From positions 310,001 to 374,000 of the forward strand of contig NZ_CP046908.1 in assembly GCF_009789575.1 (NCBI RefSeq): a stretch of 64,000 nucleotides of DNA, in the 5' to 3' direction. Under the pieces are notes generated by a model that saw nothing but the letters and a program-made list of their open reading frames with translations, did not search any database and was not told where the DNA came from. The position numbers and the translations under genes are program-made. Shown piece by piece: positions 17,092 through 26,389 of this stretch (position 1 is its first letter; each line of letters starts with the position of its first letter). This DNA is from Stappia indica. GTDB taxonomy: Bacteria > Pseudomonadota > Alphaproteobacteria > Rhizobiales > Stappiaceae.

Positions 17092-17754
17092 CTAGTCGAC
17101 GGACATGCCGGCGGCCTCTTCATCCTCCGGTGTCACGTCGATGATGCGGGCCCGCTTCGTGATTTTCACATCCGTCTTGCAATCCGTCATGCAAGGCTCG
17201 GCCGCGGCCTTCATCGGCTCTTCCGGCCGCGTGTCGTCGATGAACCCGCCCTCGTTCGGCATCTTGATCGAGGTGAAGTTCTCCTTCGAGAGCTCGAACT
17301 CCTCATCCGTCACGACGTCGTTCAGATAAAGAAGATACGCAACGATAGCATAGGTTTCGTCGGGCGAAAGGCTCTGCGCGTTCCCAAACGGCATGGCTCT
17401 GTAGACGTAATCGTAGACAGTCGACAGATACGGCCAGTAGGAGCCGATCGTCTTCACCGGGTCGTGCGACGACAGCGAGCCGGCACCGCCAGCCAGCACC
17501 GGCCAGCGTCCGGCGCCCTCGCCGAAATCGCCGTGGCACACCGCGCATTGCTCGGAGAAGATGGCCTCGCCCTCAGCGACTGTTCCGCGTCCTTCGGGCA
17601 GGCCCTGTCCGTCCGGGCGCACGTCGATGTCCCAGGCGGCAACCTCCTCGGGAGTGGCCGGCGTTCCAAGGCCGAGCTTGCCGGCGCTCGCCGGCATGCT
17701 GCCGGCGACGGCCAACGCCAGGACGAGAGCTGCGGACTTAAGAAATCTCGACAT
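17092..17754 (-). CDS. soxD: SoxD, cytochrome c subunit of sulfane dehydrogenase SoxCD
   Basis: Periplasmic cytochrome c (220 aa) with a signal peptide ending near residue 24 and one heme motif, CAVCH (70-74). AMPFGNAQSLS provides a possible Met ligand. It pairs with the molybdenum subunit SoxC to oxidise the sulfane sulfur on SoxY. It is much shorter than the diheme Paracoccus SoxD (about 384 aa), having only the first heme domain plus a Cys-containing tail (PCMTDCKTDV). The start overlaps the soxC end by 17 nt, suggesting translational coupling; an in-frame ATG at 17769 is an alternative. Confidence 0.92.
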   Translation of the reverse strand: MSRFLKSAALVLALAVAGSMPASAGKLGLGTPATPEEVAAWDIDVRPDGQGLPEGRGTVAEGEAIFSEQCAVCHGDFGEGAGRWPVLAGGAGSLSSHDPVKTIGSYWPYLSTVYDYVYRAMPFGNAQSLSPDETYAIVAYLLYLNDVVTDEEFELSKENFTSIKMPNEGGFIDDTRPEEPMKAAAEPCMTDCKTDVKITKRARIIDVTPEDEEAAGMSVD

Positions 17755-19027
17755 TTTCCACGCTCCCATCGGCCTTGACCTCCCAGGTCTGGATACCGTT
17801 GTTATGATAGATGGAATTGGTGCCGCGGGCGGCACGCAACGCGTCCTTGGTCGGCTGCACGTAGCCGGCATCGTCATGGGCGCGCGACTGCAGCAGCAGC
17901 GGCGACCCGTCCCAGTCGAACTCGTAGTAGAAGCGGTGCAGCGCCTTCGGCAGGCTCGGCCCGTCGATCCGCGCCTGGTGCCAGTTGCGGCCGCCATCGG
18001 TGGTGACATCGACGCGGGTGATGCGCCCATTGCCCGACCAGGCAAGGCCGGTCAGCACGGTCTGGCCGCGGCCATGCAGGATGGGTGCCTGGGGGCTGGG
18101 ATTGGTGATCACCGACTTGGTGTCCATCACCCAGGTGAAGCGCCGCGCCTTGCCGCCCTCCAGCAGATCCGTATATTTCGACGTCTCCTCGCGGGCATGC
18201 CACGGCTCGTCGCCCACCTCGATGCGGCGCAGCCACTTCACCCACATGTTGCCTTCCCAGCCCGGCACAACAAGGCGGGCCGGATAGCCCTGTTCGGGGC
18301 GCAGCGCCTCGCCGTTCATCTTGAAGGCGACCATGCAGTCGTCCAGCGCCTTCTCCAGCGGGATGGAGCGGTTCATGCCGGCGGAATCGCCGCCTTCCGG
18401 CATGACCCAGCGGGCATTGGTCTTCACCCCCGCCTCTTCCAGCAGGTATTTCAGCGGCACGCCCGTATACATGACGCAATGAACCATGCCGTGGGTGAAC
18501 TGGCAGCCGTTCAGCTGGGCACCGCGCCACTCCATGCCGGAATTGGCGGCGCATTCCAGGAAATACAGCCGGTTCTCGCGCGGGAAGCGCTTCAGATCAT
18601 CGAGCGTGAAGACCAGGGGCGTGTCGACCAGACCGTTGATCATCAGCCGGTAGTCCGTCGGATTGACATCGGCGACGCCGCTGTGATGACGCTCGAAGCA
18701 CAACCCGTTCGGGGTGATGACGCCGTCCAGCTCATGCAGCGGCGTGAAGTTCACCGAGCTCTCGCGCGAGGCCGTGAGCCACTCGACGCTGCGGCGCACC
18801 ACATGCGCCTCGTATTCGGACGGAACGCCGTAGGGCGCCGCATCGACGCCCGCGCCCAGATAGCGGCTCCAGTCGGCGACGTTCGGCGGCAGGTTGTCGG
18901 GATTGACCTCCGATCCGCGGGCAAGACCGCCGGTCGCGACCAGCCCGCCGACGGCAAGACCCGCCTTCAGAAGCGAGCGGCGGCCGGGGCTTGCCGGCGC
19001 GCCGTCAGGTCCTGGTGTTTTCTTCAT
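17738..19027 (-). CDS. soxC: SoxC, molybdenum cofactor subunit of sulfane dehydrogenase
   Basis: Sulfite-oxidase-fold molybdoprotein (429 aa), exported folded by Tat (GRRSLLKAGLAVGG, residues 16-29). The molybdopterin ligand cysteine is in the context YFLECAANSG (Cys159), followed by EWRGAQLNGC and the dimerisation domain (ILHGRGQTVLTGLAWSGNG). With SoxD it removes six electrons per sulfane sulfur on SoxY. Tat export fits its cofactor, and moaC and moeA elsewhere in this window make that cofactor. The start ATG at 19027 sits 85 nt after soxB. A degenerate SoxR-type palindrome lies 35 nt upstream, so an internal promoter is possible. Confidence 0.95.
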   Translation of the reverse strand: MKKTPGPDGAPASPGRRSLLKAGLAVGGLVATGGLARGSEVNPDNLPPNVADWSRYLGAGVDAAPYGVPSEYEAHVVRRSVEWLTASRESSVNFTPLHELDGVITPNGLCFERHHSGVADVNPTDYRLMINGLVDTPLVFTLDDLKRFPRENRLYFLECAANSGMEWRGAQLNGCQFTHGMVHCVMYTGVPLKYLLEEAGVKTNARWVMPEGGDSAGMNRSIPLEKALDDCMVAFKMNGEALRPEQGYPARLVVPGWEGNMWVKWLRRIEVGDEPWHAREETSKYTDLLEGGKARRFTWVMDTKSVITNPSPQAPILHGRGQTVLTGLAWSGNGRITRVDVTTDGGRNWHQARIDGPSLPKALHRFYYEFDWDGSPLLLQSRAHDDAGYVQPTKDALRAARGTNSIYHNNGIQTWEVKADGSVENVEIS

Positions 19028-19061
19028 GTCGTCCTCCGCAGGCATCTTTTCAGATATGCGA

Positions 19062-19111: not shown

Positions 19112-20806
19112 TCAGAGCCCGGTGACGCGCACGGCGCGGTTCGGCTCGAGCGTAACCGTTCCGTGATCCTTCAGATGGGCCTCGACCACATCCCAGATCG
19201 CCGGGCCTTCCGTCCCCTCGTTCACACTGGCCCAGCCGGTCACCACATAGCTCTTGTTCGCCTCGACTGCCGTCCCGTCGGCGATGACCGTCATCTCGGA
19301 AATCCGGCTTCCGATCTCCTTGGTAGGATCGATCGAATAGGCCATGCCGCCGACGCGGACCATGTCGCCGCCCTGCTGGTAGTAGGGATCGGCGTTGAAG
19401 AGATTGTCCGCCACGTCCTCGAGGATGTCCTTGAGCATCGTGCCGGTCATCTCCGACCGGTAGGCCGCCGGATAGGTCATCGATGTCGCGTTGTGCAGGT
19501 CCTCGACCGTGATCGGTTGGCCGGCCGGAACCGACGTGCCCCAGCGGAATCCCGGCGACAGGGCGATCTGCGCCTCGCGCTGCTCCAGCAGGGCATCGCA
19601 GATGAGATCGTCGAACGTGCCGTTGAAGTTGCCGCGGCGGTACAGCAGCGTTTCGGTCGTCGCCAGTTCGCGCGCCAGCTCATCCGCATGGGGCGCGCGG
19701 ATCTTCTCCACCAGCGCCGTCATCTCCGCATCGGGTGTAATGACGTCCGAGAAGATCGGGATCAGCCGATAGCGGAAGTCCTTCACTTCGCCGCCCTGCA
19801 CGTCGAGATCGAGGCGCGAAAGGAACTTGCCGTTGGAACCGGTGGCGACCAGCAGCGTCTTGCCCACCTTCACCGGCTCGGGCAGTGCATCGTGCGTGTG
19901 GCCGGTCAGGATCACGTCGAGACCGGTTACCCGGCTCGCCAGCTTGCGGTCGACGTCGAAGCCGTTATGCGACAGCAGGACGACGAGCTCCGCACCCTCC
20001 GCCCGCACCGCATCGATATTGGCCTGGACTTCTTCCTCGCGGATGCCGAACGACCAGTCGGGCATCATCCAGCGCGGATTGGCAACCGGCGTATAGGGGA
20101 AGGCCTGGCCGATGACGGCGACCTTGACCCCGCCCCGCTCGAAGATGCGATAGGGCTCGAAGACCGCCTCGTCCCATTCGGTGTCGCGGATATTGCTGCC
20201 GAGGAAGGCATAGGGAAGTCCCTCGACCAGTTCCTTCACGCGCTCCGCACCGTAGGTGAACTCCCAGTGCCCCGTCATCGCATCGGGCGCCAGCGCGTTC
20301 ATGACCTCGATCATGTCCATGCCGCCGGTCTTCAGCGAGGTGTAGCTGCCCTGCCAGGTGTCGCCGCCGTCGAGGAACAGCATCCGGTCCTCGCGCTCGG
20401 CGCGGATCGACTTGAGCACGGTGGCGATGCGGTCGATGCCGCCCATCCGGCCATAGGCGCGCGACAGGGAATCGAAGTCGACCGAGGTCAGCGCATAGGC
20501 CTCCGGAGAGCCCGGCTGGAGATTGTAGAGCTTGAGGAAATCCTCGCCGGTCACATGCGGTGGCAGACCCCTGACTTCGCCGACGCCGAGGTTGGTCGAA
20601 GGCTCGCGGAAGTAGACCGGCATCAGCTGGGCGTGGATGTCCGTCAGATGCACGAGGGTGACATTGCCGAGCGGCCGGAACGACAGAAGATCGTCCTGGG
20701 TCAGGCTCTGCTGGGCCGCCAGCCGCGCCCACTGGCCGAAGCCGGAACCGCTGGTCAAGGCACCGGCGGCCACTGCCGCCATCAGGAACTCACGCCGCGA
20801 AATCAT
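19112..20806 (-). CDS. soxB: SoxB thiosulfohydrolase
   Basis: Dimanganese hydrolase of the 5'-nucleotidase family (564 aa) that releases sulfate from the SoxY-bound thiosulfonate in the periplasm. A Tat signal is present (SRREFLMAAVAAG, residues 3-15). Metal-site motifs are visible: TDIHAQLMP, DGGDTWQG, GHWEFTYG, LLSHNG and TGHTHDALP. The C-terminal nucleotidase domain is intact and the length is typical. SoxB is the standard marker for thiosulfate oxidation. The ATG at 20806 begins directly with the Tat motif, which supports this start. Confidence 0.97.
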   Translation of the reverse strand: MISRREFLMAAVAAGALTSGSGFGQWARLAAQQSLTQDDLLSFRPLGNVTLVHLTDIHAQLMPVYFREPSTNLGVGEVRGLPPHVTGEDFLKLYNLQPGSPEAYALTSVDFDSLSRAYGRMGGIDRIATVLKSIRAEREDRMLFLDGGDTWQGSYTSLKTGGMDMIEVMNALAPDAMTGHWEFTYGAERVKELVEGLPYAFLGSNIRDTEWDEAVFEPYRIFERGGVKVAVIGQAFPYTPVANPRWMMPDWSFGIREEEVQANIDAVRAEGAELVVLLSHNGFDVDRKLASRVTGLDVILTGHTHDALPEPVKVGKTLLVATGSNGKFLSRLDLDVQGGEVKDFRYRLIPIFSDVITPDAEMTALVEKIRAPHADELARELATTETLLYRRGNFNGTFDDLICDALLEQREAQIALSPGFRWGTSVPAGQPITVEDLHNATSMTYPAAYRSEMTGTMLKDILEDVADNLFNADPYYQQGGDMVRVGGMAYSIDPTKEIGSRISEMTVIADGTAVEANKSYVVTGWASVNEGTEGPAIWDVVEAHLKDHGTVTLEPNRAVRVTGL

Positions 20807-20951: not shown

Positions 20952-21806
20952 CTAGTTGCGCACCGCCGGCGTCTCGACCGAAAGCCCCGTCCCGCGCCAG
21001 GCGAGATAGGTCTCCAGCGCGACGAACTCGTCCGACCCAACGTCATAGGGTTCGGCACGGACATCCGCCATGCAGCCCTTGAGGCGACGGTGCAGCGAGC
21101 CCATCTTCTGCCACTTCAGCCGGTATGTCGGGAAGCCGTTGGACTGGCCCTGGCTGAGATGGTCGGCGCGGATATAGTTGCCGTAGTTGCTCTCGTGGCA
21201 ACTGGCGCAGGCGAGATCCAGCTGGCCGCTGCGGGTGTAGTAGATCTCCTTGCCCTTGTCCCACCAGCTCTGCATGTCTCCGGCCTTGAGGTCGAGCGCG
21301 ACAGGCATGCCGCGGGACTGCAGGCCGACATAGGCGGTCATGCCCAGCATCTGGTCGGATTCCCATTTCCAGGCATCCGCGCCCATGCGCTCGGTCCGGC
21401 AGGCGTTAACATACTGCTCCATGGCCATCGGCTTGCCGGCCGCCTCGTTCCACTTCGGCATGGAGGCGCGCACGCCCTTCATGCTTTCCGAGGCATCGCC
21501 ATGGCAGCTCTCGCAGGACTTGCCCGCGCTGCCCTCGACCGTCGACCAGAGCGCCTCGCCCTGCTCGACCATCAGGAAGCCCGGATTGTTGAAGTCGTCG
21601 AGCTCCAGGTCCTGGGTTTCCTTGGTTCGGAACTCGAAGCCCGAGATCACCTCGCTCAGGGGGTGCCCTTCCGGCGGCGCCGCGCGCGTCACGATGGTCG
21701 TACCGTCGATGCTCGGCATCTGGGTCTCGTCACCGTTCGCGGCGCCCGTCGCCAGGACCGCGATAGCGGCGGTGCCGGCGATAAGTGTGCCCGCAAGTTT
21801 CTTCAT
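20952..21806 (-). CDS. soxA: SoxA cytochrome c, catalytic subunit of SoxXA
   Basis: Periplasmic diheme cytochrome (284 aa) that, with SoxX, joins thiosulfate to the SoxY cysteine. A signal peptide spans about residues 1-25. Heme motifs are CESCH (98-102) and CASCH (200-204). Cys136 is a plausible axial ligand to the first heme. The catalytic cysteine expected to be persulfidated is Cys245 in RRLKGCMADVRAEPY. Two c-heme motifs make this the diheme SoxA type. The ATG at 21806 directly precedes the signal peptide. Confidence 0.96.
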   Translation of the reverse strand: MKKLAGTLIAGTAAIAVLATGAANGDETQMPSIDGTTIVTRAAPPEGHPLSEVISGFEFRTKETQDLELDDFNNPGFLMVEQGEALWSTVEGSAGKSCESCHGDASESMKGVRASMPKWNEAAGKPMAMEQYVNACRTERMGADAWKWESDQMLGMTAYVGLQSRGMPVALDLKAGDMQSWWDKGKEIYYTRSGQLDLACASCHESNYGNYIRADHLSQGQSNGFPTYRLKWQKMGSLHRRLKGCMADVRAEPYDVGSDEFVALETYLAWRGTGLSVETPAVRN

Positions 21807-21892: not shown

Positions 21893-22219
21893 TTACTCGA
21901 CGGTGATCTTGGATTCGCTGGAATAGACCGAGCCGTCGTCGTCCACCCAGGTGAACTTGAACGTGCCCGTCTCCGGCACCCTGGCGCTGAATTCCAGGTA
22001 GGGATTGGCCGAGATCGCCGGCTCGAGATCGCAGGAGAAGACGGTCTTCCCGTTGAACTCGCAGGTGAACTTGTTGATGATCGACCGCGGAATGACATTC
22101 CCTTGGTCGTCCTTGCGCTGGCCGGACTCCATCTTGTGGGAAATGAGGGTCTTGATCTGGATGACCTCGTCCTTGGACGCCGTCTTCGGCACCTTGACGC
22201 GGGGCTTGGAACTGGACAT
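21893..22219 (-). CDS. soxZ: SoxZ, partner of the sulfur carrier SoxY
   Basis: Small immunoglobulin-like protein (108 aa) that heterodimerises with SoxY. As usual for SoxZ it has no signal peptide and is thought to be exported with SoxY. Family features visible are PRVKVPKTASKDEVIQIKTL at the start, SHKMESGQR in the middle and FKFTWVDDDGSVYSSES at the end. It lies 52 nt after soxY and 86 nt before soxA, in the usual X-Y-Z-A-B order. Confidence 0.95.
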   Translation of the reverse strand: MSSSKPRVKVPKTASKDEVIQIKTLISHKMESGQRKDDQGNVIPRSIINKFTCEFNGKTVFSCDLEPAISANPYLEFSARVPETGTFKFTWVDDDGSVYSSESKITVE

Positions 22220-22271: not shown

Positions 22272-22724
22272 TTAGCCGCCGCAGCCGCCGATCGTCACCT
22301 TGACGGTCTTGCGGTCCATGAAGACCTTGCCCGTCGACGTCTTGGCCAGCGCGATCACATCCTGCGTCTTGGCAAGGCGCATGCGGGTGGTGGCATCCGC
22401 GGAGCCCGACATGGACGAGAAGTGGAACGTCGCCACCCCCGGCTGCGGGTTGCCTGCCGCCAGCAGCATGACGGCGGTCACGTGGTCGGCCTCGGTCATC
22501 GGGCTGTCGACGGAAACGCCGATCGGCACGGTGTTGCCGTTCTCGGCGATCTCCGGCGCGGACAGCGAAACGGTGCCCGTCTCAACGGAGGCACCGCCGG
22601 CAAAGGCATCGATGGCCGCCTGCACCTTGGCGTCTTCGGCCGATGCAAGGCGCGGCAGGCCCGTCATTCCGAGAATGGCGGCTCCAGCACCAAGGGCCAG
22701 CGCCTGGCGTCGTGTCATGTTCAT
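22272..22724 (-). CDS. soxY: SoxY sulfur carrier protein
   Basis: Periplasmic carrier (150 aa) to which Sox intermediates are bound covalently. A Tat signal is present (TRRQALALGAG, about residues 4-14) with cleavage near LASA. The immunoglobulin-like domain follows. The protein ends in the invariant swinging arm GGCGG, with Cys148 the attachment site for thiosulfate and sulfane sulfur. The ATG at 22724 is chosen because it immediately precedes the Tat motif; a longer in-frame version from 22784 would bury it. Confidence 0.96.
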   Translation of the reverse strand: MNMTRRQALALGAGAAILGMTGLPRLASAEDAKVQAAIDAFAGGASVETGTVSLSAPEIAENGNTVPIGVSVDSPMTEADHVTAVMLLAAGNPQPGVATFHFSSMSGSADATTRMRLAKTQDVIALAKTSTGKVFMDRKTVKVTIGGCGG

Positions 22725-22780: not shown

Positions 22781-23236
22781 TCAATCCTTGAGCGTCATCA
22801 GATAGGCGACCACATCCTCGACCTGCTGTGCGGTCATGATGGTCTTGCCGGCGAATTTAGGCGCCACCCGGTGGAAGCCTTCGTTGCGGTAGAAGGCCGG
22901 CATCACGGTGCCCTCGTAGACCATCTTGGGATTGACGATGATCATGCGCAGGGTCGCTTCGTCCCAGCGATCGGCAACGCCGTCGAGCGGCGGGCCGACT
23001 TCGCCATGGAACTGCTGGTCGGACAGCTCCGTCGCCGTATGGCAGGCAACGCAATTGCCCAGCCGGCGGTCGATCACCGCCTGGCGACCGGCAGCGGCGT
23101 CGCCGGGAACGCCTGTCAGCGATTTCGGAATGGTTCCGTCGACAACTTCGTAGGACACGATGTCTTCGGCAGCAGCCGCTGCAACGCCTGCAAGCAGGAC
23201 GCACGCGGCCGTCATACCCCTACGAAAGAGGCTCAT
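22781..23236 (-). CDS. soxX: SoxX cytochrome c subunit of SoxXA
   Basis: Monoheme periplasmic cytochrome (151 aa), electron acceptor of SoxXA. A signal peptide (about residues 1-23) is followed by the heme motif CVACH (62-66) and a likely Met ligand in KMVYEGTVMPAFY. It is the first gene of the soxXYZABCDEF transcript. Its 191-nt upstream gap carries a perfect SoxR-type palindrome at 23368. The ATG at 23236 begins MSLFRRG, giving a normal signal peptide. Confidence 0.95.
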   Translation of the reverse strand: MSLFRRGMTAACVLLAGVAAAAAEDIVSYEVVDGTIPKSLTGVPGDAAAGRQAVIDRRLGNCVACHTATELSDQQFHGEVGPPLDGVADRWDEATLRMIIVNPKMVYEGTVMPAFYRNEGFHRVAPKFAGKTIMTAQQVEDVVAYLMTLKD

Positions 23237-23367
23237 GGGCTGTTTTCCTTCCCTCTGACCGGCTTGCGCCAGCGTCAAGCCGGCGTTCCCGGCCTTGTCT
23301 TCTTGGTGGCCGATTCAACCGACCTGTCGAAACCGTAGCACCATCGGGAAGGGCAATCAATTCACAT

Positions 23368-23383
23368 ATTCATTTATGAGAAT
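23368..23383. promoter_or_regulatory. Probable SoxR operator ahead of soxX
   Basis: Perfect palindrome ATTC-N8-GAAT in an AT-rich island, 131 nt upstream of the soxX start and 44 nt beyond the soxV stop. As I recall, this is the consensus reported for the related persulfide-responsive repressor SqrR of Rhodobacter. With soxR encoded 1.5 kb away, SoxR is the natural candidate to bind it. Confidence 0.7.
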
Positions 23384-23427
23384 ACATCGATGCGACCGCA
23401 TTCTCCCCCCAGGGTGCGGGGTCGAGC

Positions 23428-24168
23428 TTACCCTATGACGGCGAGAGCGGGAAACGTTTCGAGCAACCAGAAGGAGAGCCGCGCCATCTGTCCGGTCATG
23501 AAGGCGACGCCGGTAATGATCAGGAACACTCCCATCACCCGCTCCACCGTCACCATGTGCTTGCGGAAGCGGCGCATGAACCGCATGAACGGCCCGGCAA
23601 AAAGGCCCGCAATCAGGAACGGCACGCCGATCCCCAGCGCGTAGGACCCGAGCAGGACAGCCCCCTGAATCACCGATTCCTCGGTGCCGGCAACGAACAG
23701 GATCGCTGCCAGGATCGGCCCCACGCACGGCGTCCAGCCGAAGGCGAATGCAAGGCCGATGGCATAGGCGCCAAGCAAGCCGGCGGGCTTGCGCTCCACA
23801 TGCACCCGCGCCTCCCGGTACAGCAGGCCGATGCGGAACACGCCGAGGAAATGCAGGCCCATGACGATGATCGCCGCGCCCGCGATATAGCCGAGCACCT
23901 GGATATGCTGCGTGACGAACTGGCCGATGAAGGATGCGCTGGCACCCAGCGCCACGAAGACGGTCGAGAAGCCGAGAACGAAGGCCAGGGAGGCGAAGAA
24001 CACCTTGCGCGGATCGGCCTTTTCCTCCTCGCCCTCCCCCGTCAGCTGATCGAGGGAGACGCCGGCGAGAAAGCCGAGATAGGGCGGAACCAGCGGCAGG
24101 ACGCAAGGCGACACGAAGGAAAGGAGGCCCGCGAAAAACGCGCCGATGACTGTGACGTCCTGAAACAT
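23428..24168 (-). CDS. soxV: SoxV, CcdA/DsbD-type membrane electron carrier
   Basis: Six-helix inner-membrane protein (246 aa) of the CcdA family that passes reductant from cytoplasmic thioredoxin to the periplasm. The two reactive cysteines sit in FVSPCVLPLVPPYLG (helix 1) and FGWTPCVGPILAA (helix 4), the standard CcdA arrangement. Next to soxX and divergent from soxS, it matches SoxV, needed to keep SoxY or other Sox thiols reduced in Paracoccus. A dedicated soxW thioredoxin is not seen; SoxS may be the periplasmic partner. Confidence 0.9.
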   Translation of the reverse strand: MFQDVTVIGAFFAGLLSFVSPCVLPLVPPYLGFLAGVSLDQLTGEGEEEKADPRKVFFASLAFVLGFSTVFVALGASASFIGQFVTQHIQVLGYIAGAAIIVMGLHFLGVFRIGLLYREARVHVERKPAGLLGAYAIGLAFAFGWTPCVGPILAAILFVAGTEESVIQGAVLLGSYALGIGVPFLIAGLFAGPFMRFMRRFRKHMVTVERVMGVFLIITGVAFMTGQMARLSFWLLETFPALAVIG

Positions 24169-24285
24169 GAGCCTACCTGCTTGCTGCCTGGGACCGGGCG
24201 GGACGCCGAGGTGAGCGGCGATCCGATATCGCCCGGCATAACGGATACACGCTACACGGCAATGTGACCCCTTGCCTCAACTCGT

Positions 24286-24301
24286 ATTCCCCTTTTCGCA
24301 T
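24286..24301. promoter_or_regulatory. Near-match SoxR operator in the soxV/soxS divergent promoter
   Basis: ATTC-N8-GCAT, one base off the perfect ATTC-N8-GAAT at 23368. It lies 118 nt from the soxV start and 76 nt from the soxS start, where it could control both directions. The surrounding bases are AT-rich. Confidence 0.5.
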
Positions 24302-24376: not shown

Positions 24377-24778
24377 ATGCGCTGGCCGGTCCCGACGCTT
24401 CCCCTGATGCTGGTGACGGCTCTTGCCGTTCTTGCCGCCCCGCATGCGCGCGCGGCCGAACTCGTCATGTTCGAGCAGAAGGGCTGCGAATGGTGCATCC
24501 GCTGGCATACGGAGATCGGGCCGATCTACCCCAAGACCGAGGAAGGCCGGCAGGCGCCACTTCGTCGCGTCGACATCCACGAGCCGATGCCCGATGATCT
24601 GGCGTGGTTGAAGGGCGAACGGTTCACGCCCAGCTTCGCGCTGATCGAGGACGGCCGCGAGATCGGCCGCATTCGCGGCTATCCCGGAGAGGACTTCTTC
24701 TGGGGCCTTCTCGGGCAGATGATCGAGAAGCTGAAGCCGTCCGCAGACGGCATGCAGGGCCGTCCCGCCTCGGGCTGA
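24377..24778 (+). CDS. soxS: SoxS periplasmic thioredoxin-like protein
   Basis: Exported thioredoxin-fold protein (133 aa) with a signal peptide ending near residue 27 (ARAAE) and a redox motif CEWC (37-40). The core includes FTPSFALIEDGREIGRIRGYPG, whose cis-Pro segment (TPSF) is typical. Its size and position beside soxR and opposite soxV match SoxS of Paracoccus, which reactivates SoxYZ. An AGGAAG ribosome binding site lies 9 nt upstream of the ATG. A SoxR-type site in the preceding gap suggests control by SoxR. Confidence 0.9.
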   Translation: MRWPVPTLPLMLVTALAVLAAPHARAAELVMFEQKGCEWCIRWHTEIGPIYPKTEEGRQAPLRRVDIHEPMPDDLAWLKGERFTPSFALIEDGREIGRIRGYPGEDFFWGLLGQMIEKLKPSADGMQGRPASG

Positions 24779-24880: not shown

Positions 24881-25213
24881 TTGGCACTGCCGGGAATCAA
24901 GGAACTCCAGTGTTCGGACGACCTCGACAGGATCGTGGACCGCGCGAAGACCGCGAGCGACTTCCTGAAGGCCATCGCTCACGAGAGCCGATTGCTTATC
25001 CTGTGCATCCTGGCGGAAGGCGAAAAATCCGTCACGGAGCTGGAGGCCCTGCTTTCGCTCCGCCAGCCGACCGTTTCCCAGCAGCTCGCACGGCTGAGAA
25101 TGGACAAGCTCGTCACGACGCGGCGCGAGGGCAAGACAGTCTACTACCGTCTGGCGAGTGACGATGCCCGCCAGATCATCGAGGCGGTCTATACCGTCTT
25201 CTGCCGGAACTGA
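24881..25213 (+). CDS. soxR: SoxR, ArsR-family persulfide-responsive repressor
   Basis: Winged-helix repressor (110 aa, TTG start) of the ArsR/SmtB family. The recognition helix lies in LSLRQPTVSQQLARLR (about residues 58-73), followed by the beta wing TTRREGKTVYYRLA. Cysteines are at 11, 42 and 108. Cys42 and Cys108 occupy the positions of the reactive pair in the BigR/SqrR/SoxR subgroup, which form a tetrasulfide with persulfides and lose DNA binding. It likely represses the sox genes through the palindromes at 23368, 24286 and 19062. The start is inferred; no ATG alternative fits the length as well. Confidence 0.9.
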   Translation: MALPGIKELQCSDDLDRIVDRAKTASDFLKAIAHESRLLILCILAEGEKSVTELEALLSLRQPTVSQQLARLRMDKLVTTRREGKTVYYRLASDDARQIIEAVYTVFCRN

Positions 25214-25300: not shown

Positions 25301-26389
25301 ATGGAGATGCAGACATCCTTGGTGATGGCGCTGTGCGGCTTTGCCGGCGGCGTTGTGCTGGGCCTTGCCGCGCGTGTCGGCCGGTTCTGCACCATGGGCG
25401 CGCTCGAGGACGCGTTTCTCGGCGGCGACATGAGACGGCTGCGCAGCTGGGCGCTGGCGATTGCCGTCGCGCTCGCGCTGACCCAGATCGCGATTGCCCT
25501 CGGCCATATCGATCCGGCGCGCTCGATCTACCTTCCCTCCACCCTCCCCTGGCTCGGCGCGATTGCCGGCGGGTTGATGTTCGGCATCGGCATGGCGCTC
25601 GTCGGCACCTGCGGGTTCGGTACGCTCGCCCGTATCGGCGGCGGCGACCTGCGCTCCGTCGTGACCTTTCTCGTCATGGCCGTTTCCGCCTACATGGCCA
25701 TGCGCGGGATCACCGGCGTCCTGCGCCAGGTCCTGATCGATCCCTTCACGCTGTCGTTCGCCGCGCTGGGCGGCACGGCGCTCAACGACATTCTCGACAA
25801 GGCACTCGGCATCGAGACCGGCGCCGCCCTGGGGCTCGTCGTCGCCGGCATGCTGGGCGCCTGGGCGGTGCGCGACGGCACCTTCCGGTCCGAAACGCGC
25901 CTCGTCGTCAGCGGCATCGCCGTCGGCCTTGCGATCACCGGCGGATGGCTTGCCACCGGCCTGCTCGGCAACAATCCGTTCGAGCCGCAAAAACTCGAAT
26001 CCTTCACCTTCGTGCGCCCGCTCGGCGACGCGCTGGTCTATGTCATGACCTATAGCGGCGCGACGCTGACCTTCGGCATCGGCTCGGTCTTCGGCGTGAT
26101 CTTCGGGGCGGTGGCCGGCGCCCTGTTCAAGCGCGAGTTCCGCTGGGAGGCCTGCGACGACGTCCGCGAGCTTCGCCGCCACATGGTCGGTGCCTTCCTG
26201 ATGGGAACGGGCGGCATCCTCGCCTTCGGCTGCACCATCGGCCAGGGCATCACCGCGGCCTCGGTGCTCGCCGTCTCCGCGCCGCTGGTGATGGTGTCCA
26301 TCGCCGTCGGCGCACGCCTGGGCCTCGCCTGGCTGATCGAGGGCAGCATCATGGGCCTCTTCGGCCAGCGCGGCTCTCACGGCACCTGA
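25301..26389 (+). CDS. soxT: YeeE/YedE-family sulfur-compound transporter (SoxT-like)
   Basis: Multi-spanning inner-membrane protein (362 aa) of the YeeE/YedE family, whose studied members import thiosulfate through conserved cysteines. Those cysteines are visible in RFCTMGA (near residue 29), GTCGFG (near 106) and FGCTIGQG (near 310). It is preceded by a strong GGGGGAGG ribosome binding site 8 nt before the ATG and follows soxR by 87 nt. It probably brings thiosulfate or another sulfur species across the membrane for signalling or assimilation; the exact substrate is unknown. Confidence 0.85.
   Translation: MEMQTSLVMALCGFAGGVVLGLAARVGRFCTMGALEDAFLGGDMRRLRSWALAIAVALALTQIAIALGHIDPARSIYLPSTLPWLGAIAGGLMFGIGMALVGTCGFGTLARIGGGDLRSVVTFLVMAVSAYMAMRGITGVLRQVLIDPFTLSFAALGGTALNDILDKALGIETGAALGLVVAGMLGAWAVRDGTFRSETRLVVSGIAVGLAITGGWLATGLLGNNPFEPQKLESFTFVRPLGDALVYVMTYSGATLTFGIGSVFGVIFGAVAGALFKREFRWEACDDVRELRRHMVGAFLMGTGGILAFGCTIGQGITAASVLAVSAPLVMVSIAVGARLGLAWLIEGSIMGLFGQRGSHGT

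Follow-up and report, generated by a model that had tools for sequence, protein, structure and literature searches.

A conserved ATTC-N8-GAAT palindrome as a candidate SoxR operator at the soxX promoter of Stappia indica

The soxX promoter of Stappia indica holds a perfect ATTC-N8-GAAT palindrome that we read as a candidate operator for SoxR repression of the operon opened by soxX (soxXYZABC), with a probability of roughly 0.87. The site, ATTCATTTATGAGAAT, lies at positions 23368-23383 of the window, the 64,000-nucleotide stretch of DNA that was analysed, and is the only match to the motif within it. On the minus strand, in the sense of soxX, the conserved core reads ATTCTCATAAATGAAT. Both arms are perfect, and on inspection of the sequence the inner eight bases are asymmetric apart from a central TA. 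The palindrome is present as an earlier note on this DNA had read it, and so is the AT-rich island between soxV and soxX in which that note had placed it, with a GC content of 42% at 23347-23406 and of about 60-70% in the flanks on both sides. Our analysis also supports, in substance, the proposal that SoxR would be the protein bound here.

The genes around the site form a recognizable sox cluster. Downstream of the operator and likewise on the minus strand, soxX comes first (22781-23236; NCBIfam thiosulf_SoxX, 91.3 bits, cut-off 61), followed by soxY (22272-22721; SoxY_true, 149.6 bits, cut-off 125), soxZ (21893-22219; SoxZ_true, 113.1 bits, cut-off 76), soxA (20952-21806; thiosulf_SoxA, 269.1 bits, cut-off 110), soxB (19112-20806; thiosulf_SoxB, 867.1 bits, cut-off 550) and soxC (17738-19045; sulfite_DH_soxC, 637 bits, cut-off 420), all matched by NCBIfam models. 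On the other side lies soxV, of the CcdA/DsbD-TM type (23428-24168, minus strand; Pfam DsbD_TM, 79.7 bits). Beyond it, on the plus strand, stands soxSRT, an arrangement that has been described (PMC11582611). It comprises a soxS-like open reading frame with a CxxC motif (24377-24778), soxR (24881-25213) and soxT, a YeeE/YedE-like sulfur transporter gene (25301-26389; Pfam Sulf_transp, 208.3 bits). The soxS-like gene has no Pfam or NCBIfam match, so that its name rests on gene order, the same place before soxR being occupied in related loci, and on the CxxC.

The soxV-soxX spacer, at 191 bp, is too short to hold soxW. The two genes stand about 800 bp apart in many of the more distant loci, a distance that fits soxW, which is placed there in the Bradyrhizobium order soxTRSVWXYZABCD as given in the accessible text of PMC5748708. 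One related locus (L080, in genome G027) is a second sox-like cluster, with partial matches to several sox genes and a SoxR-like protein that lacks C42, and it is perhaps decaying.

SoxR has the ArsR/SmtB winged-helix domain (Pfam HTH_5, 43.5 bits against a cut-off of 22) and carries both of the cysteines, C42 and C108, to which the earlier note had drawn attention. Compared with solved structures, it gave a best match of 111.6 bits (E 1.6e-31) over residues 11-109 with both cysteines paired; the best entries are labelled 'Transcriptional regulator, ArsR family', and we take them to be SqrR. HlyU, named a transcription activator, is also among the structures matched. The nearest NCBIfam equivalog is BigR (NF040642), at 109.2 bits and under its cut-off of 155. 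The cysteine pair is well kept: among 30 SoxR sequences, from the window and 29 loci having soxT and soxB, only L080 lacks C42, and only L080 and L085 lack the C-terminal cysteine. Both columns are invariant in our alignment A1, which omits these two sequences and the near-duplicates L066 and L070. The motif that the earlier note had ascribed to SqrR is indeed in print, as the deduced SqrR recognition site, in the accessible text of PMC9774250, the sole paper with the exact string that a literature search found.

By count alone, ATTC-N8-GAAT is at chance level; the position and conservation of this copy are beyond chance. The motif has only eight fixed bases, and counting it is therefore no proof. 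Of 100 versions of the window with its dinucleotides shuffled, 39 had at least one copy, and the 5.1-Mb genome holds 26 (their sequence context judged with a rough ORF and GC3 rule), with no genome-wide enrichment over the approximately 42 obtained by scaling up the mean of 0.52 copies per 64 kb in the shuffles. When the 191-bp soxV-soxX spacer itself was dinucleotide-shuffled, 29 of 5000 sequences held the motif.

Conservation within the genus is close. An orthologous sox locus was found in 12 of the 13 other genus genomes among the matches listed, the exception being G003, which has a more distant sox cluster. The earlier note had staked its reading on close relatives keeping the motif before soxX, and the motif is retained within one mismatch in 12 of 12, being perfect in 10 and altered in L051 and L052, where ATCC replaces the ATTC arm. 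An alignment of 13 sequences shows no variation in 22 of the 30 columns spanning 23357-23386, compared with 14 of 137 in the rest of 23260-23426, a count that omits the ribosome-binding stretch adjoining soxX, which is conserved as well. The soxX upstream region of the G003 cluster (L085) holds a two-mismatch site only, and the distant SoxR-like protein encoded there lacks the C-terminal cysteine.

Beyond the genus we drew on 121 loci, namely the window, 40 stretches picked by hand among the matches listed when SoxR was sought in 61 genomes, and the best 80 loci of a GTDB scan. All of these listed loci have a soxR match and 82 have a soxX match; removal of near-duplicates left 64 soxX upstream regions among the matches listed (250 bp each, with the start taken from tblastn). 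The perfect motif is present in 48 of these 64 listed regions, and the spacing is specific. At spacings of 0-7 and 9-13 there are no matches, except for three at N2, and wider spacings give one at N14, seven at N16, one at N17 and three at N20. Eleven permuted words at N8 gave none among the same regions, and mononucleotide shuffles of them yielded a mean of 0.22 perfect motifs and at most three. The perfect motif is scarce before other genes of the listed clusters, where the counts are 1 of 77 upstream regions for soxV, 1 of 83 for soxS and 4 of 75 for soxY. The genomes are related and the 48 are therefore not 48 independent events, although the controls share the same relatedness. Seven of the 16 listed soxX regions that have no perfect site are one mismatch away. 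With one mismatch allowed, N8 is matched in 55 of the 64, but N4 in 27 and N16 in 26, so one-mismatch matches weigh less. The soxX site has the arms and spacing of a SqrR/SoxR-type operator and is conserved at the soxX promoter in relatives.

The core adjoins a promoter-like pair of boxes of the form TTG(A/C)-N17/18-TACGGT. A consensus promoter scan gave no match at the soxX promoter, and the boxes were therefore taken from conservation. The inferred -35 box, TTGATT, lies at 23355-23360 on the minus strand; the inferred -10 box, TACGGT, at 23332-23337, also on the minus strand, is separated from it by 17 bp, is preceded by TGC and includes the conserved T46, A47 and T51. When the 48 listed regions were aligned on the motif, TTG was found close to the core in 47, 6 bp after GAAT in 42 and 7 bp after it in five. 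The window belongs to the class of five, its TTG being one base farther from the core than in the 42. The likely start is predicted near 23325; the core has its centre roughly 50 bp ahead of it, upstream of the inferred -35, a position that simple repressors take less often. A third half-site may matter here. A further GAAT in the sense of soxX (23360-23363, minus strand) begins 4 bp after the core and has one base in common with the inferred -35, giving the composite layout ATTC-N8-GAAT-N4-GAAT. Every one of the 13 genus loci, the window among them, has the string GAAT-N4-GAATTGA. Of the 48 dereplicated perfect regions among the matches listed, five show the three-part layout in full, and each of these comes from this genus. 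The -35 could be covered by a dimer bound to the core, or to the core and the third half-site together.

We propose a model in which SoxR, encoded 1.5 kb from the operator in the divergent soxSRT unit, would bind ATTC-N8-GAAT just upstream of the -35 as a reduced dimer. In this genus it would probably also reach the third GAAT, which touches the -35, and RNA polymerase would be blocked from the TTGATT-N17-TACGGT promoter. Thiosulfate or another oxidizable sulfur source would give rise to sulfane sulfur, by which C42 and C108 would become sulfur-bridged; SoxR in this form would release the DNA and the operon would be read. Through a weaker site in the soxV/soxS spacer, the same loop would extend to soxV and to soxSRT with soxR itself. 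We infer the binding, the repression and the sulfur response from homology to SqrR and to the SoxR proteins of Hyphomicrobium, Bradyrhizobium, Paracoccus and Pseudaminobacter.

That the palindrome is a chance product of an AT-rich promoter is hardly credible. Chance supplies the motif readily, as the 39 shuffled windows and the 26 genomic copies attest, but it does not account for a site kept in 12 of 12 genus loci and in 48 of 64 listed regions with specificity for both spacing and word. It is also very improbable that SoxR serves here as an activator or anti-repressor. Activators often bind at about -50, where the core lies relative to the inferred promoter, and the named activator HlyU is a family relative. 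However, the third half-site touches the inferred -35 in this genus, and the relatives whose regulators have been removed point to repression: H. denitrificans strains negative for the repressor express sulfur-oxidation genes without thiosulfate, according to the accessible text of PMC11582611, and a Bradyrhizobium soxR mutant is reported to have raised soxS, soxV, soxW and soxY1 without thiosulfate and to have lost thiosulfate induction (1.4-fold or less) in the accessible part of PMC5748708.

A different protein might also read the site. The genome encodes two further cysteine-pair regulators, at positions 2918285 and 539263, and we consider it unlikely that either reads the operator, alone or together with SoxR. 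Both have the ArsR HTH and both cysteines, and their scores with the BigR model are 85.9 and 80.0 respectively, against 109.2 for SoxR. Sharing of sites has a precedent in H. denitrificans, where four fragments are bound by both sHdrR and SoxR (PMC12423496, in the text available). With one mismatch allowed, the motif occurs upstream of the 2918285 type in 10 of 13 genomes, partly running into the gene start, and upstream of the 539263 type in 1 of 13. Yet the perfect motif is upstream of neither paralogue (0 of 13 each; these 13 genomes are those among the matches listed, own included and G003 set aside), a different conserved block, AATATAT...GCTAATTTAGCAAG, stands upstream of the 2918285 type, and across alphaproteobacteria the motif accompanies sox-soxR clusters. 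That block, conserved in the genus (L226-L238) beside a Blh-like gene, is probably the 2918285-type regulator's own operator. Paralogue 2918285 itself adjoins YeeE-like genes and a sulfur-dioxygenase-like gene, which matches the sulfur dioxygenase Blh with 394 bits, below the cut-off of 625. SoxR repression from the soxX site remains our preferred reading, although YgaV, a relative, also binds a promoter lacking ATTC-N8-GAAT in the account available from PMC9774250, which counts against it.

The soxX site is very probably a further example of a known SqrR/SoxR-type switch. It has the same arms and spacing as the site of Rhodobacter capsulatus SqrR, whose cysteines are C41 and C107 in the accessible text of PMC9995734, and SoxR aligns over residues 11-109 with the cysteines paired. 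The systems differ in their genes: SqrR represses sulfide-responsive genes such as sqr, whereas the Stappia regulator is encoded in soxSRT and its target would be sox; the third half-site also sets the site of this genus apart from the SqrR site. BigR is likewise distinct, in that SoxR scores below its cut-off and has sox genes as neighbours. A second regulated promoter is reportedly situated before soxX in Paracoccus and Pseudaminobacter, and the Pseudaminobacter work is said to have named two promoters, sv and wx. Likeness to H. denitrificans SoxR lies in an ArsR-type protein with two cysteines; there, C50 and C116 are present, sox intergenic DNA is bound and polysulfide prevents the binding (PMC10451225, as far as its text is accessible). 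The organization there differs, with soxXA and soxYZB divergent and sHdrR as a second repressor. SoxR binding regions are known from the sox clusters of Paracoccus and Pseudaminobacter, again according to the available text of PMC10451225. The SoxR systems of Bradyrhizobium, Paracoccus pantotrophus and Pseudaminobacter salicylatoxidans offer a parallel, with divergent promoters under SoxR between soxS and soxV and a thiosulfate induction of sox genes that depends on soxR, as described in the accessible text of PMC5748708. In Bradyrhizobium, soxW lies between soxV and soxX, unlike in Stappia.

A second, imperfect site, ATTC-N8-GCAT, is located in the Stappia soxV/soxS spacer (24286-24301, plus strand) and is kept in the genus. 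The earlier note had called the soxX site the primary operator of SoxR, which holds insofar as it is the perfect one of the two sites in the cluster; the imperfect site, however, is equally constant, being found in 13 of 13 genus loci (12 others and the window). In the window this site is weak: its matrix score of 3.0 hardly exceeds the 95th percentile of shuffled sequences (2.8), whereas the soxX site scores 19.1. Among the matches listed, 34 of 83 soxS upstream regions score above the 99th percentile; the one-mismatch N8 motif is present in 32 of 83 at soxS and 30 of 77 at soxV, only slightly more than at other spacings, which reach up to 25. A strong X-side site with a weaker soxV/soxS site would fit thiosulfate induction in Bradyrhizobium, which is 4500-fold for soxY1 and 50-fold for soxS and soxV and 90-fold for soxW in the accessible part of PMC5748708. 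The same spacer contains a block, CACGGCAATGTGACC (24255-24269), that is nearly invariant in the 13-sequence alignment and is not accounted for by the SoxR motif. It is perhaps the soxV promoter or the site of another regulator.

At soxS, a different arrangement of the same half-site is common. A tandem repeat, ATTC-N4-ATTC, occurs in 32 of the 83 dereplicated soxS upstream regions among the matches listed, where other spacings from 0 to 16 give five or fewer. Thirty of these 32 loci fall within L112-L169, mostly Roseobacter-type genera, the rest being L057 and L073, and 21 of the 32 read ATTCACATATTCA. The repeats are flanked by a CTTG box and a T-A-n-G-T box, interpreted here as the -35 and -10. 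Examples are seen in L120, L145 and L153, and L119 has three ATTC repeats. With ATTC-N4-ATTC at soxS and ATTC-N8-GAAT at soxX, one half-site appears in tandem and inverted forms, and the two arrangements are likely both SoxR sites. The window's soxX site combines the inverted pair with a tandem repeat and reads ATTCACATATTCATTTATGAGAAT on the plus strand.

One of the 26 genomic copies of the motif points to a target far from the sox cluster. It precedes a Sulf_transp (YeeE-like) gene that stands alone at G000:C1:2785897-2786970. Across L010 and L181-L192, the loci examined for this gene, 12 genomes of the genus, this one among them, have an orthologue of at least 78% identity; the perfect motif is present in 11 of these (L189 is the one without it) and begins 51-70 bp before the second codon. 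Farther upstream, TTGA-N6-TCAA, presumably an FNR/FixK-type box, is found in the same 12 of 12. G003 has a 57% homologue with neither the motif nor the TTGA-N6-TCAA box, and G005 has no orthologue. The pairing of the two motifs makes this distant gene a good candidate for SoxR plus redox control. A SLAC1-type channel gene (255448) was considered as another member, as a perfect motif at G000:C1:255405-255420 (L001) lies 43 bp upstream of it; only 4 of the 14 genomes of the genus, this one among them, have the site, and the gene was therefore not counted in the regulon. The top-scoring site of the 26 (20.6), at 2801792, adjoins what by eye appear to be sigma-factor and ParB genes.

A tentative proposal, to which we give somewhat less than even odds, is that SoxR reads its half-site in two ways, at soxX as an inverted pair directly before the -35, and at Roseobacter-type soxS as an 8-bp direct repeat (ATTC-N4-ATTC) between the inferred -35 and -10. 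Stappia soxX would carry both, so that two dimers might compete or cooperate and give a graded response, and the same operator would also control the distant yeeE-like transporter gene with its FNR-type box. The composite layout, the two half-site arrangements and the yeeE-like target may be the new aspects of this switch. Graded control within the regulon could have its explanation in the differing arrangements at soxX and soxS and in the motif that the distant transporter gene shares. The soxX site gives the sulfur control of thiosulfate oxidation in this genus a precise location that can be tested, and its recurrence suggests that a single operator sequence can predict, in many Alphaproteobacteria, which sox operons SoxR controls.

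The regulator and its site may also vary together. SoxR has P instead of R at position 61 in L072, L073, L074, L076 and L078. Classified by residue 61, the 64 listed regions divide into 42 perfect and 11 other operators with R, none perfect of four with P, and seven unclassified; counting L067 and L080 as P61 gives a perfect operator in 1 of 6 P variants. The P61 group consists of a few related genera, so that this co-variation is a lead only. Altered soxX sites such as AATCATATCTTTTAAT are found alongside P61 in L073, L074 and L076.
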